Source: Rheinheimera riviphila (GTDB lineage Bacteria; Pseudomonadota; Gammaproteobacteria; Enterobacterales; Alteromonadaceae). From it: a stretch of 64,000 bases of DNA. The first letter of the stretch is position 1. Each line of letters begins with the position of its first letter. Under the pieces are notes generated by a model. It ran no database searches and was not told the origin of the DNA. It worked only from the letters and a program-made list of their open reading frames with translations. A program made the translations under genes and the position numbers. Location of the stretch: NCBI RefSeq assembly GCF_004005945.1, contig NZ_SACS01000004.1:1-64000 (forward strand). Direction: 5' to 3'. This document shows positions 8,230 to 12,465 of this stretch, piece by piece.

Positions 8230-9759
8230 ATGAAGTTGTTGTCGTATTTGTCATTGCCTGTCACGTGCCTGTTGCTGGGCACTTGTTTACTGTCTCCGTT
8301 GGCCGGTCAGGCTGTCGCCGCAGAACGTCAGGCGCGGCTGATTTTTACCGCCGAATTACCCCGTATTCTCGAAACTGAACAAGGCGATTACGCCGAGCTT
8401 GCCAGTATCGTCAAAACCCAACGTCAACAGCCAATTCCGACATTTTTTCTGTTTGGTGGCGATAGCTTAGGCCCCAGCACGCTGGCGTCCTTTGACCGTG
8501 GTTCACACATTATCGATATTCTGAATTTGCTGGAACCCGATGCAATGGGCGTGGCGAAACGTGAATTCAGCTTTTTTGAAGACGAATTGTCCTTGCGTAG
8601 CTATGAAGCGTCCTTTCCGGTGGTGGCCAGCAATCTGTTTGATCCTATTACCGGAGGTAATCTGGATGGCCTCGAATCGTCAGTGATTGTGCAACAAGCT
8701 GATGTTCGGTTAGGTGTTTTAGCGGTGTTTTCGCCGGCAGCGGCCGAGCAATACCCCCTTAATCGGGTGATGATTACATCGCCGGAAGAAGCTGTCCGTG
8801 AGCAATCGGTGTTATTGCGCCAAGCCGGTGCTGAGCTGATTGTGTTGTTATATTCCGCCAATTTTGACTTTGTCGACAGCCTGATCCAGCAGCGGGTGAT
8901 CGACGTTGCACTGCGCAAAAACGAACTGTTCCGGCTGACCAAAACCGAATTACCCAAAACGCTGCCAGCCAATATTAATTTAAGTGCGCCAGGTGAAGTG
9001 GCGGTGGTCGATTTACGCTGGACCGCCGGTGCGCCGGAAACCTTGCAACTCGAACCAAGCTTTCAGCAGTTAAAAGCACAGCAGCCAGATCCTACGGTAT
9101 TAAAAGTGGTGAAAAGCCATTCCGCCCGACTGGAACAATTATTAGGTGAAACCATTGGCACCACCACGGTCGAACTGGATACCAACCGCCGCCTGGTGCG
9201 CAGTCAGGAAAATGCGCTGGCCAATCTGGTGGTGGACGCGATGGTCTGGCATACCGGCGCGGACATCGCGCTGGTCAATGCCGGTAATATTCGCGGTGAA
9301 AAGCACTATCCGGCGGGCACCAGTTTAACCCGGCGTGATATTGCGATGGAGTTACCTTACCGCAATCAGGTGGTACTGGTGCAGGTGACTGGCAAACAAC
9401 TGCTGGCGGCACTTGAAAACGGCTTAAGCGAGTTTGAATTATTGCGTGGGCGTTTTGCACATCTGAGTGGCATGAAAATGCAGTTTGATCCGAGCCAACC
9501 GGTTGGAAAAAGAGTGATTTCGGTACAGATCAATGGTCAGCCTTTAGTGCCGAAACAGCAGTATAAACTGGCGACTTTTGATTATCTGGCGGAAGGTGGT
9601 GATGGCTACAAAGCACTGGTCGATTTGCCGCAACTTAATTACAGCAATCAGATGAATAAGCTGATTGCTGAAGTGGTGGTGGATTACATCAAATTGCAGA
9701 AAAATATTGCGCCTGTACTGCAACAACGGCTGGTCAATACCGCGCGGAGTCAGCCATGA
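8230..9759 (+). CDS. Degenerate 5'-nucleotidase-like periplasmic protein
   Basis: A 509-residue exported protein (signal peptide ending near AVAA, residue 31) with the two-domain architecture of UshA/5'-nucleotidases. The C-terminal nucleotide-binding domain looks intact: ENALANLVVDAM, NAGNIRG and YLAEGGDGY. The N-terminal metallophosphoesterase domain has lost its metal ligands. The DxH segment reads IFTAELPR (about 38-45), GNHEFD reads AKREFSF (109-115), the SHxG segment reads YSANFD, and the GGHTH segment reads LRKNE; only GGDSL (76-80) survives. It is therefore unlikely to hydrolyse phosphate esters and may act as a ligand sensor. Its stop overlaps the start of the diguanylate cyclase by 4 bp (ATGA), which implies joint function. 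Confidence 0.85.
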   Translation: MKLLSYLSLPVTCLLLGTCLLSPLAGQAVAAERQARLIFTAELPRILETEQGDYAELASIVKTQRQQPIPTFFLFGGDSLGPSTLASFDRGSHIIDILNLLEPDAMGVAKREFSFFEDELSLRSYEASFPVVASNLFDPITGGNLDGLESSVIVQQADVRLGVLAVFSPAAAEQYPLNRVMITSPEEAVREQSVLLRQAGAELIVLLYSANFDFVDSLIQQRVIDVALRKNELFRLTKTELPKTLPANINLSAPGEVAVVDLRWTAGAPETLQLEPSFQQLKAQQPDPTVLKVVKSHSARLEQLLGETIGTTTVELDTNRRLVRSQENALANLVVDAMVWHTGADIALVNAGNIRGEKHYPAGTSLTRRDIAMELPYRNQVVLVQVTGKQLLAALENGLSEFELLRGRFAHLSGMKMQFDPSQPVGKRVISVQINGQPLVPKQQYKLATFDYLAEGGDGYKALVDLPQLNYSNQMNKLIAEVVVDYIKLQKNIAPVLQQRLVNTARSQP

Positions 9760-11483
9760 ACAACTCCGGCTTCGACAAAACCAGCTTTGACAAAGCCAGT
9801 CAGGACAAAGCAAGTCACGGCAAAAGTAGCAGCCACAAGCCGCTAAAGCTGCCGGTGGCTGAATTGCGGGGCATGGTGCCGATTAAACGTCGTTATTCGA
9901 TTACCACCATGCTGACGTTAACTTCGTTGCTGGTGCTACTGTTGTTGATCTGCATGGCCGCGATGATGCAAAGCCGGTTGTTGCGGTTGCAGGGTAACAT
10001 CGGCGATATCGCCACCAACGCCATTCCATCCGTGGTGCATTCCAGTAAAGTATACAGTAAAATCAATCAGTTACTCTATCTGACTGAAGCGATGGGACAG
10101 GCGCCAAGCCAGGCGGTGCGGCACAATCTTTATCTGGATATCCAGCAAAATTTGCTAGGTTTAGAGCAACTGACCGCCGATCGGCAAAGTGTGTTGTATC
10201 AGGAAGCGCAATTGGTCGCGCTGACCGAAGAGCTGCACAGCCTGAACGAACTGACCAGCCAGCGGCTGGAGTTACAGCAGCAGGTGCAAACTCGGCTGAC
10301 CCAGGTGTATCAGCTGTATGAACAATTACAGCGCGCCGCTAAAACAGAAACTACCGCCAGCGGCCAGCAAGCCGTTGGTTTGCTCGATGTCGCCGAAGTG
10401 GTCGCGCAATCCGGTAAAGCCTTGACCATCAATCGTTTGCTGATGCTGCGGCAATTACAGCAGCAGGTGAGCAAGCAACTTGCACAAGTTACGCCTGGCA
10501 AGCCGCAGGCTGTCGCCAGCAAAACTAATTTGTTGCAACAACAACTACAACAGTTGTTGCTGGCCGATGACGGTGTGTTTCCACTGCGGATTGAGCAATT
10601 AGTGGTGACCGGCCGCGCCAATGGCCGCAGTAATTTTGTGCGCAATTTGGTGCTGGATTATGCGAGGCTGGCGGAAAATAGCGCTTATGATGTCAGCGTC
10701 ACCGTATTGGCCGATGCTGAGCTCAGTAATAAACAAATCCGTCAGTACAGTCAGCAAATATTAGTGGTATCGGCGCTGGCGCTGTTGTTTCTGGCAGCTG
10801 GTATTTACCTGGTGCATTTGCGGGTCGTGCGCCGGCTGGAGCAACTGAACACCAATGTGCTGAAACAGATGCAGGGCAAACCGGCCGCCCATCAAATTTC
10901 CGGTCATGATGAAATCGCCGCTATTGCGCGGTCGTTTCAGTTTTTTGCCGCGACCGTCAAACAGCAACAACAAGAGCTGGAACTGCTGTCCTATACCGAC
11001 AGTCTGACCGGGCTGGCCAACCGCCGATCGCTGGAATTGCGGCTGGCCGAACAACTGGCGCAGGCACAGCGGCAACAGTGGCCGTTGTCGATACTGATGA
11101 TTGATGTTGATTGTTTTAAAGCGTTTAACGACCACTACGGCCACCAGGCCGGTGATCGGACTTTGCAGCAAATTGCCGGGCTATTGCTGCAAGGTTTTAA
11201 CCGCGCCACCGACAGTGTGGCGCGATATGGGGGGGAGGAATTTGTGGTGATCCTGCCTAACACCAACAAAACCGGTGCATTGGCCTTAGCCCATCAGTTA
11301 CAGGAACTGGTGGGGCAGGCGGCCATTGCGCATGAACACAATCTGGCAGCACCTTATGTCACGGTCAGTATTGGGGTGTCGTCGTTGGAACGTGCCGGCC
11401 CATCTGACTATGACATGATTTTACGCCAGGCTGACAATGCGCTTTATCAAGCCAAAGATGCTGGCCGCAATACTGTGGCCTGA
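9756..11483 (+). CDS. Membrane-bound diguanylate cyclase with periplasmic sensor domain
   Basis: A 575-residue protein making cyclic di-GMP from two GTP. The order is: a short repetitive cytoplasmic tail rich in DK/AS units (about 1-30), TM1 (about 48-68), a 260-residue Gln-rich helical periplasmic domain, TM2 (about 333-353), a HAMP-like segment, and a C-terminal GGDEF domain with DSLTGLANRR, the active-site GGEEF (about 490-494) and an RxxD inhibitory site (RATD) exactly five residues before it. So it looks catalytically active and product-inhibited. Translation is coupled to the pseudo-nucleotidase by an ATGA overlap, making that protein the likely periplasmic partner. A solute-binding-like gene follows 120 bp downstream. 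Confidence 0.93.
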   Translation: MNNSGFDKTSFDKASQDKASHGKSSSHKPLKLPVAELRGMVPIKRRYSITTMLTLTSLLVLLLLICMAAMMQSRLLRLQGNIGDIATNAIPSVVHSSKVYSKINQLLYLTEAMGQAPSQAVRHNLYLDIQQNLLGLEQLTADRQSVLYQEAQLVALTEELHSLNELTSQRLELQQQVQTRLTQVYQLYEQLQRAAKTETTASGQQAVGLLDVAEVVAQSGKALTINRLLMLRQLQQQVSKQLAQVTPGKPQAVASKTNLLQQQLQQLLLADDGVFPLRIEQLVVTGRANGRSNFVRNLVLDYARLAENSAYDVSVTVLADAELSNKQIRQYSQQILVVSALALLFLAAGIYLVHLRVVRRLEQLNTNVLKQMQGKPAAHQISGHDEIAAIARSFQFFAATVKQQQQELELLSYTDSLTGLANRRSLELRLAEQLAQAQRQQWPLSILMIDVDCFKAFNDHYGHQAGDRTLQQIAGLLLQGFNRATDSVARYGGEEFVVILPNTNKTGALALAHQLQELVGQAAIAHEHNLAAPYVTVSIGVSSLERAGPSDYDMILRQADNALYQAKDAGRNTVA

Positions 11484-11604: not shown

Positions 11605-12465
11605 ATGAAATCTGTAGTAATTTCGGTTTTAACCTTGTTGCCATGGATGCCAGTGCCGGGGTTAGCCAAACCTGCTATTGACTGGTTGAGTATACACTGG
11701 CCACCGTCTCGGATCGCTGACGGTGTCGACAAAGGCCAGGGACACCTTGATCAAATGCAACAGTTGTTGATGGCAGAATTGGTGCAATACCGTCATCAAG
11801 TGCATTACAGCAATTTTGCCAGAGTCGAACAGACCCTGGCTGCTCCAACCGCCCAAACCTGTATGTTCGCGCTGATCTACAATGAAACCCGTGGCAAAAC
11901 GATGTTTTTCAGCATTCCGGCGGTGACCTCGGTTAATGTGATGTTGCATATGCGCGCCGACCATCCGTTAGCGCGGCAATGGCGATCTGGTACAGGAGTT
12001 GCGTTATCGGAAGTCACGCTTGATCCGACGATGAATGGGCTGGTTGAGCGCAACCGGGGTTACCCGGCGGAGGTGAAAAAATATCTTGATATTGCAGGTC
12101 GTAATTTGACCGGTCAGTCGTTGCAAAGTGTGAATCCGGTGGATTTATTAACCGCCAGTCGTTTTGATTATCTGATTGAATTTCCTGATCGGGTTCGTTA
12201 TTTCCAGTCGATCTCGCTCCAAAAAAGTCAATTGGTTGATATACCGATCCGCGGTTTAGATCCTTTGATATATTCGTATGTCGCTTGCCAGAATAGTGCC
12301 GAAGGAAAGTTACGGATCCGTGATATTAATCAGGCGTTGCAAAAATTACGGGGGAATAAAGCATATCTGGATGCGATGATGCGCTGGTTAAGTCCACATC
12401 GCCAACAGCAAGTGCAAAAAATACTGCCGCAGTTTGCCGACGATGTGAATTCTCCCTCTTTGTAG
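11605..12465 (+). CDS. Exported solute-binding-like protein (TIGR02285-like)
   Basis: A 286-residue protein with an N-terminal signal peptide (MKSVVISVLTLLPWMPVPGLA), resembling the TIGR02285 group, which is distantly related to type 3 periplasmic solute-binding proteins. Family-like traits are the early DWLSIHWPPSRIADG stretch, a CMFALIYNETRGKTMFFS core and the C-terminal LRIRDINQALQKLRGNKAYLD region. The start at 11605 has GGAG 6 bases upstream; an open frame extends further 5' but only through the repeat remnant. It lies downstream of the diguanylate cyclase and could be a further periplasmic input. Ligand unknown; no transporter genes adjoin it. Confidence 0.7.
   Translation: MKSVVISVLTLLPWMPVPGLAKPAIDWLSIHWPPSRIADGVDKGQGHLDQMQQLLMAELVQYRHQVHYSNFARVEQTLAAPTAQTCMFALIYNETRGKTMFFSIPAVTSVNVMLHMRADHPLARQWRSGTGVALSEVTLDPTMNGLVERNRGYPAEVKKYLDIAGRNLTGQSLQSVNPVDLLTASRFDYLIEFPDRVRYFQSISLQKSQLVDIPIRGLDPLIYSYVACQNSAEGKLRIRDINQALQKLRGNKAYLDAMMRWLSPHRQQQVQKILPQFADDVNSPSL

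Follow-up and report, generated by a model that had tools for sequence, protein, structure and literature searches.

We analyzed a 64,000-nucleotide stretch of Rheinheimera riviphila DNA (positions 1 to 64,000 of contig NZ_SACS01000004.1; hereafter, the window), and in particular a pair of overlapping open reading frames on its + strand: 8230-9759, which encodes an exported protein of 509 amino acids with the fold of a 5'-nucleotidase, and 9756-11483, which encodes a membrane diguanylate cyclase of 575 amino acids (Table 1). An earlier note on this DNA had reported that the stop of the first gene overlaps the start of the second, and this is correct: the overlap is ATGA. A GGAG at 9746-9749 is a plausible ribosome site for the cyclase gene, and the translation of the two genes is likely to be coupled through the overlap. 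Both genes are under purifying selection (the ratio of nonsynonymous to synonymous substitution rates, or dN/dS, is 0.035-0.063 when compared to two relatives), so neither of them is decaying. The closest named relative of the 509-residue protein is from Rheinheimera sp. SA_1 (96% identity). We propose that the exported protein is probably a nucleotide receptor and not an enzyme, because, judging by the sequences, the residues that perform the cutting have been lost, the nucleotide pocket has been kept, and the gene is inherited together with the gene for the cyclase.

At Pfam's cut-offs, the 509-residue protein matches 5_nucleotid_C alone (PF02872, at the C-terminal end, E = 1.9e-40). It is the only 5_nucleotid_C protein that we found in its genome (G000, a draft), so we found no canonical UshA-type enzyme in that draft. 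The earlier note had suggested a comparison to metallophosphoesterase families: Metallophos from Pfam did not match this protein or any of the 42 members of its family that we scanned. Equivalogs from NCBIfam match far under their cut-offs (for UshA, 112.6 vs. 600 bits), and in PHROGs, one unnamed family matched, with its best stretch in the C-terminal domain. The protein retains the motifs NAGNIRG (at 350) and GGDGY (at 456), as the earlier note had it.

We aligned 107 non-redundant proteins, namely 75 members of the pseudo-nucleotidase family and 32 canonical relatives. The 75 family members score at least 374 bits in the profile search, the 32 canonical proteins score at most 180 bits, and nothing lies between. 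(We considered open reading frames of 301-799 amino acids with E ≤ 1e-5 for the A1 profile and removed copies that were identical over residues 101-250 of the open frame; because of these filters, the loci L011/L088, L094, and L096 are not among the 75. The pattern scan provided 45 of the 75 and other searches provided the other 30.) The ligands of the dimetal site of 5'-nucleotidases lie in motifs that we take to be DxH, GD, GNHE, HxG, and GGHxH, which we checked on the canonical relatives. The Asp and His of DxH are present in 31/32 and 26/32 of these, and the Asp of GD, the His of NHE, the His of HxG, and the first His of GGHxH are each present in 31/32.

At the four columns with a ligand histidine (DxH, NHE, HxG, and GGH), His is found in 0 of the 75 family members, as compared to 26-31 of the 32 canonical proteins, and no family member has any His in the three positions on either side of the catalytic His of NHE. 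In the 509-residue protein itself, DxH, GNHE, SHxG, and GGHTH are all absent, as had been claimed. It has no His within 3 residues of those four columns, so the shifted ligands that the earlier note had warned of are not seen in this protein. That claim of loss does need two corrections: the Asp of GD is retained (Asp78; across the family, 13/75 have it), and the His of HxG may have slipped in some relatives (see below). Neither this protein nor the family has the dimetal ligand set of 5'-nucleotidase enzymes, and on the strength of the alignment, we conclude that the catalytic site has been lost throughout the pseudo-nucleotidase family. Where the canonical proteins have Asn-His-Glu (30/32, 31/32, and 31/32), the family has Lys-Arg-Glu (70/75, 69/75, and 70/75), which is replaced by KRN and QSE in the two members that are farthest removed. 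When a profile of 42 relatives is aligned to solved nucleotidases, xKRE falls opposite their GNHE region.

The overall fold has been kept. An AlphaFold2 model of the 509-residue protein (built with 42 relatives; mean confidence, or pLDDT, of 92.1) has the two-domain fold of 5'-nucleotidases, including the 5_nucleotid_C domain, and Foldseek matches it to 5'-nucleotidases along its whole length (the best match is 2z1a, E = 1.6e-40). Among the matches listed, the model has TM-scores of 0.73-0.76 to 16 "closed" chains and 0.55-0.57 to four "open" chains, although the closed-like pose of a predicted model says nothing of the protein's state in the cell.

The nucleotide-binding residues of the C-terminal domain have been kept as well. 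In human CD73, an enzyme that cuts AMP, Phe417 and Phe500 are described as stacking on the base, Asn390 and Asp506 as holding the ribose, and Arg354 and Arg395 as holding the phosphate (PMC8677862). We mapped these residues by hand via the alignment (the chain index is offset by 26, as fixed by Phe500 and Asp506), and the counterparts of Phe417, Phe500, Asn390, Asp506, Arg354, and Arg395 are Tyr377, Tyr452, Asn350, Asp458, Arg324, and Arg355, respectively. Across the family, Arg324, Asn350, and Asp458 are conserved in 75/75 and Arg355 in 74/75 (one has Lys). The stacking positions are aromatic in all 75: position 377 is Phe in 54 and Tyr in 21, and position 452 is Tyr in 63 and Phe in 12. Among the canonical relatives, the Arg354 position is conserved in 20/32, the Asn390 position in 22/32, and the Arg395 position in 32/32. 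At five of the six positions, the pocket is kept at least as strictly in the family as in the 32 canonical proteins; the exception is Arg355. Three more residues (Asp89, His93, and Arg123) are invariant in the 75 family members and are not conserved in the canonical relatives. They may be part of the lining of the altered site, or else form a surface that faces the cyclase.

The cyclase has the layout transmembrane segment, sensor, transmembrane segment, HAMP-like linker, and GGDEF, of which Pfam reports GGDEF alone at its cut-offs. The earlier note described the GGEEF motif and the RxxD site as intact. They lie at residues 492-496 and 483-486, and GGEEF as well as the Arg and the Asp of RxxD are invariant in 34 of 34 cyclases from the family, so both marks of a diguanylate cyclase are present (RxxD being the optional one). 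HAMP was called in 21 of the 34 and was not called in the 575-residue protein of the window. Hydrophobic segments are at residues 46-78 and 331-359, so about 250 residues are expected to be periplasmic; the earlier note had put the size of the periplasmic domain at 260. This part is predicted to be all-helical, and five of its residues (Pro91, Glu159, Gly273, Arg287, and Gly290) are invariant in 37 of 37 sensors.

This sensor appears to be distantly related to the sensor of TorS. The profile of the sensor matches a TorS gene (in G055) over its sensor part, with E = 2.1e-8. When we used hhalign to compare the sensor to three TorS sensors, the result was 93% over 176 of 280 columns, which indicates remote homology, while the control with four-helix sensors of methyl-accepting chemotaxis proteins from the source genome gave 16% over 37 columns.

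The two genes nearly always occur together. The pattern scan yielded 57 named loci, and in 54 of these, a cyclase with the same sensor is directly downstream of the pseudo-nucleotidase. In 50 of the 54, an ATG of the cyclase is between -20 and +26 nucleotides of the stop codon of the nucleotidase. (The 54 include L068, whose GGDEF is spread across two open frames, and L077, whose GGDEF is cut by the end of the contig.) The three other loci are L088, which is cut by the end of its contig; L094, which is decayed; and L096 from Rossellomorea, which encodes a 1756-residue multidomain protein, has no cyclase, and is not an orthologue. When we searched 60 nearer relatives with the first 411 residues of the cyclase, 11 genomes gave a match. 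Ten of these matches have E = 1e-14 or better and are all beside the nucleotidase, and the one in G059 is borderline (E = 5e-4). In 295 genomes from across the order, for which we scored the best 5-6 candidates per genome, we found 16 full-length relatives of the pseudo-nucleotidase and 14 strong matches to the sensor (at least 339 bits). All 14 adjoin the nucleotidase. After these, the best match has 53 bits and is to the HAMP part. Orthologues whose genes are unlinked, which the earlier note would have counted against it, were thus found neither among the named loci nor in these surveys. When we searched the class with the N-terminal domain and scored up to 8 candidates per genome, two of the 369 genomes had hits at E = 1e-15, namely G000 and G065, neither of which was new.

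We also clustered the neighbors of the 54 pairs (open frames of at least 100 amino acids, compared by blastp). No other cluster is present at more than 17 of the 54 loci, so the linkage does not simply reflect a gene order that is fixed across the region; on the same grounds, we rejected a third conserved gene in the system. The distance matrices of the nucleotidases and of the sensors correlate with r = 0.92 (0 of 999 permutations), and therefore the two genes have been inherited jointly, which is not evidence of contact.

Some loci differ from the usual arrangement. At L094 (5109-6285, from Alteromonas marina), pieces of the nucleotidase run into the HAMP/GGDEF end of the cyclase and the middle is missing. 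Two of the 16 nucleotidases from the order-wide survey are not next to one of the 14 strong sensor matches. At the first, L129 (4112-5008, from G183), the neighbor of the nucleotidase is a 298-residue protein with two transmembrane segments around a sensor and no GGDEF; it is either a cyclase that has been truncated or a signalling component that lacks an output. At the second, L130 (6455-8401, from G124), the neighbor is a cyclase of 648 amino acids whose sensor has diverged and which carries an additional segment, PAS-like when judged by eye, ahead of the GGDEF. Within the genus, the pair is patchy, with the nucleotidase in 7 of 22 genomes (in one of these, G007, it is cut by the end of the contig), which points to frequent losses or transfers. 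A second cyclase is encoded directly upstream of the pair at L051, L061, and L091. We rejected it as a part of the system, as it is found at these three loci only, and that of L051, which we scanned, has the ordinary CHASE4-GGDEF make-up.

We propose that the pair is a two-protein receptor that resembles TorT/TorS, in which the dead nucleotidase closes upon binding a nucleotide and controls the synthesis of cyclic di-GMP (c-di-GMP). We give this a probability of roughly 0.7. The former 5'-nucleotidase, which lacks a dimetal center, would use its C-terminal domain to bind a nucleoside 5'-phosphate or a nucleotide like it: residues 377 and 452, both aromatic, would stack against the base, the ribose would be held by Asn350 and Asp458, and the phosphate by Arg324 and Arg355. 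The N-terminal domain would close over the ligand as in CD73, whose domains are reported to rotate by about 100 degrees between the open and closed forms (PMC8677862). Lys110 and Arg111 might stand in for the charge of the metals at the phosphate. By analogy to TorT/TorS and to NspS/MbaA, the closed form with its ligand would either dock on the helical TorS-like sensor or leave it, and the change would reach the GGDEF dimer by way of the second transmembrane segment and the HAMP-like linker, so that c-di-GMP synthesis would be set, whether up or down. The earlier note had also interpreted the protein as a periplasmic receptor that controls the cyclase. Our results support that interpretation and add to it the conserved AMP-contact residues of CD73, the whole 5'-nucleotidase fold, and the TorS-like sensor.

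As in TorT/TorS, the gene for an exported partner (here, a putative ligand-binding one) is beside the gene for a membrane receptor with an all-helical sensor, and the sensor profiles are related; a review lists TorS as an all-helical sensor with TorT and trimethylamine N-oxide as its ligand (PMC8534201). At each of three TorS loci that we examined, a Peripla_BP_1 gene is alongside, whereas the partner in our pair is a dead nucleotidase, with the fold of a 5'-nucleotidase and not that of a periplasmic binding protein. Also, the output is GGDEF instead of the kinase of TorS, and the sequence link is remote. In the polyamine-responsive NspS/MbaA system of Vibrio cholerae, the gene for an exported partner is immediately upstream of the gene for a membrane c-di-GMP enzyme, and control is by contact between proteins in the periplasm (PMC8079147), but NspS is a polyamine-binding periplasmic binding protein and MbaA has EAL as well as GGDEF. 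YfiBNR is similar in that a periplasmic protein acts on c-di-GMP signalling (PMC4655355). The 5'-nucleotidase family (UshA, CD73, SoxB, and NadN) shares the whole fold and the C-terminal nucleotide pocket with the 509-residue protein, which differs in having no recognizable dimetal site and in that its gene is tied to a cyclase. A review of c-di-GMP sensing describes nucleotide sensors that are built on GAF, cNMP-binding, or degenerate GGDEF domains, and the word "nucleotidase" does not appear in its main text (PMC8846402). Among the literature matches listed, from a search that most subscription papers fall outside of, none has a nucleotidase as the receptor for a cyclase. So, an exported partner for a membrane c-di-GMP enzyme is already known from NspS/MbaA, while a nucleotidase in the role of the partner was not found in the literature that we searched.

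Several observations weigh against a nucleotide receptor of this kind or weaken part of the case for it. The ligand could be something other than a nucleotide, because the clamp of CD73 is reported to take caffeine and riboflavin as well (PMC8677862); we consider the class of ligand to be more secure than the ligand itself. In 28 of the 75 relatives (such as L009, but not the 509-residue protein), a His is found 1-2 residues before the HxG column. In these proteins, the ligand may have slipped instead of being lost, or the His may be there by chance or in a new role; as this leaves the catalytic His and all other ligands untouched, our confidence stays the same. In poorly aligned stretches, 23/75 have D at the first column of DxH and 12/75 have H at the last column of GGHxH, which runs opposite to the loss of ligands. 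The counts of KRE across the 75 are partly biased: one of the two scan patterns contains KREFS, so KRE is over-represented in the loci from the pattern scan. (Among 32 distinct family sequences from searches without that pattern, 25 have KRE.) For the link to TorS, the Pfam model of its sensor (PF21689) does not match above the cut-off; it matches 8 of 34 single cyclases weakly (E ≤ 0.1, the best being 2.8e-4), and across 60 genomes it identified three TorS genes and none of these cyclases. Similarly, the 50 Foldseek matches listed for the cyclase are to GGDEF proteins, with no TorS among them. Given the number of candidates that were scored per genome, a lone distant sensor could be missed in the order-wide survey. 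Finally, the correlation of the distance matrices is what would be expected for any jointly inherited pair, and contact is not implied.

The 509-residue protein might instead bind no nucleotide and be a structural partner or a periplasmic lock of the cyclase, with an input such as an envelope protein or envelope stress. The model for this is YfiR, the periplasmic lock of the membrane cyclase YfiN; YfiR is sequestered by an outer-membrane lipoprotein and, in contrast to the partner here, is not a nucleotidase. Linkage and co-inheritance would look identical for a lock, and the invariance of Asp89, His93, and Arg123, which canonical relatives do not share, fits with a binding surface. However, the six AMP-contact positions are kept in 74-75 of the 75. 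Such conservation would be surprising if no ligand of that shape were bound, and we consider a lock to be unlikely.

It seems quite improbable to us that the protein has remained an enzyme whose rebuilt site has no metal or a different metal, and that the cyclase senses the product or the enzyme itself. The residues for such a site exist (Asp89, His93, Lys110, Arg111, Glu112, and Arg123, several of them charged and with little or no variation), no part of the substrate pocket is missing, Asp78 is still there, and the HxG ligand may have slipped in those 28 relatives. But the empty histidine columns, including the surroundings of the catalytic His, and the absence of Metallophos matches (42/42 members) speak against an enzyme, as does the fact that so few family members share Asp78. 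That two unrelated genes are merely transcribed together in one operon is very improbable. It is true that direct contact between the two proteins is a prediction of our model. Yet the two genes remain side by side in changing surroundings, and the 295 genomes contained no strong match to the sensor without the nucleotidase.

A broader form of our proposal, to which we would give even odds, is that in a group of marine gammaproteobacteria, an ecto-5'-nucleotidase was turned into a periplasmic nucleotide receptor, with the large closure of its domains, which once served catalysis, as the switch, and conveys extracellular nucleotides to c-di-GMP via a TorS-like cyclase. If so, then extracellular nucleotides, for instance from lysed neighbors, would feed into c-di-GMP and would be a cue for the switch between sessile and motile life in Alteromonas, Paraglaciecola, and Rheinheimera, which are common marine genera. 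Bacteria would then have their own equivalent of purinergic sensing, on a scaffold like that of CD73, and receptors derived from dead nucleotidases would form a new class. Proteins in those genomes that are labelled as nucleotidases would be misnamed. To our knowledge, the ligands of most membrane cyclases are not known; for this cyclase, the pocket of the partner points to a class of ligands that can be tested.

Table 1. Features of the gene pair, in positions of the window.
Feature	Position	Strand	Basis
Exported 5'-nucleotidase-fold pseudoenzyme, 509 amino acids	8230..9759	+	PF02872; AlphaFold2 and Foldseek
Signal peptide, residues 1-30	8230..8319	+	Hydrophobic residues 3-31; cut after AVA placed by eye
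Lys110-Arg111-Glu112, where canonical enzymes have Asn-His-Glu	8557..8565	+	Family alignment
Putative nucleotide pocket: Arg324, Asn350, Arg355, Tyr377, Tyr452, Asp458	9199..9603	+	Hand mapping onto CD73
ATGA stop/start overlap	9756..9759	+	Open reading frame coordinates
Membrane diguanylate cyclase, 575 amino acids	9756..11483	+	Pfam GGDEF, E = 2.6e-50
Transmembrane segment 1, residues 46-78	9891..9989	+	Hydropathy
Predicted all-helical periplasmic sensor, distantly TorS-like	9990..10745	+	Prediction; profile comparison
Transmembrane segment 2, residues 331-359	10746..10832	+	Hydropathy
HAMP-like linker	10821..10979	+	Limits by eye; HAMP called in relatives
GGDEF domain	10992..11471	+	Pfam; GGEEF at 11229-11243, RxxD I-site at 11202-11213

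We also note that at L131 (in G112), three canonical 5'-nucleotidase paralogues lie near each other on one strand, and the ligands are intact in all three. In the window, about 120 bases downstream of the cyclase gene and on the same strand, 11605-12465 encodes an exported-looking protein of the TIGR02285 family that resembles solute-binding proteins (135.3 bits, where the cut-off is 143.3).

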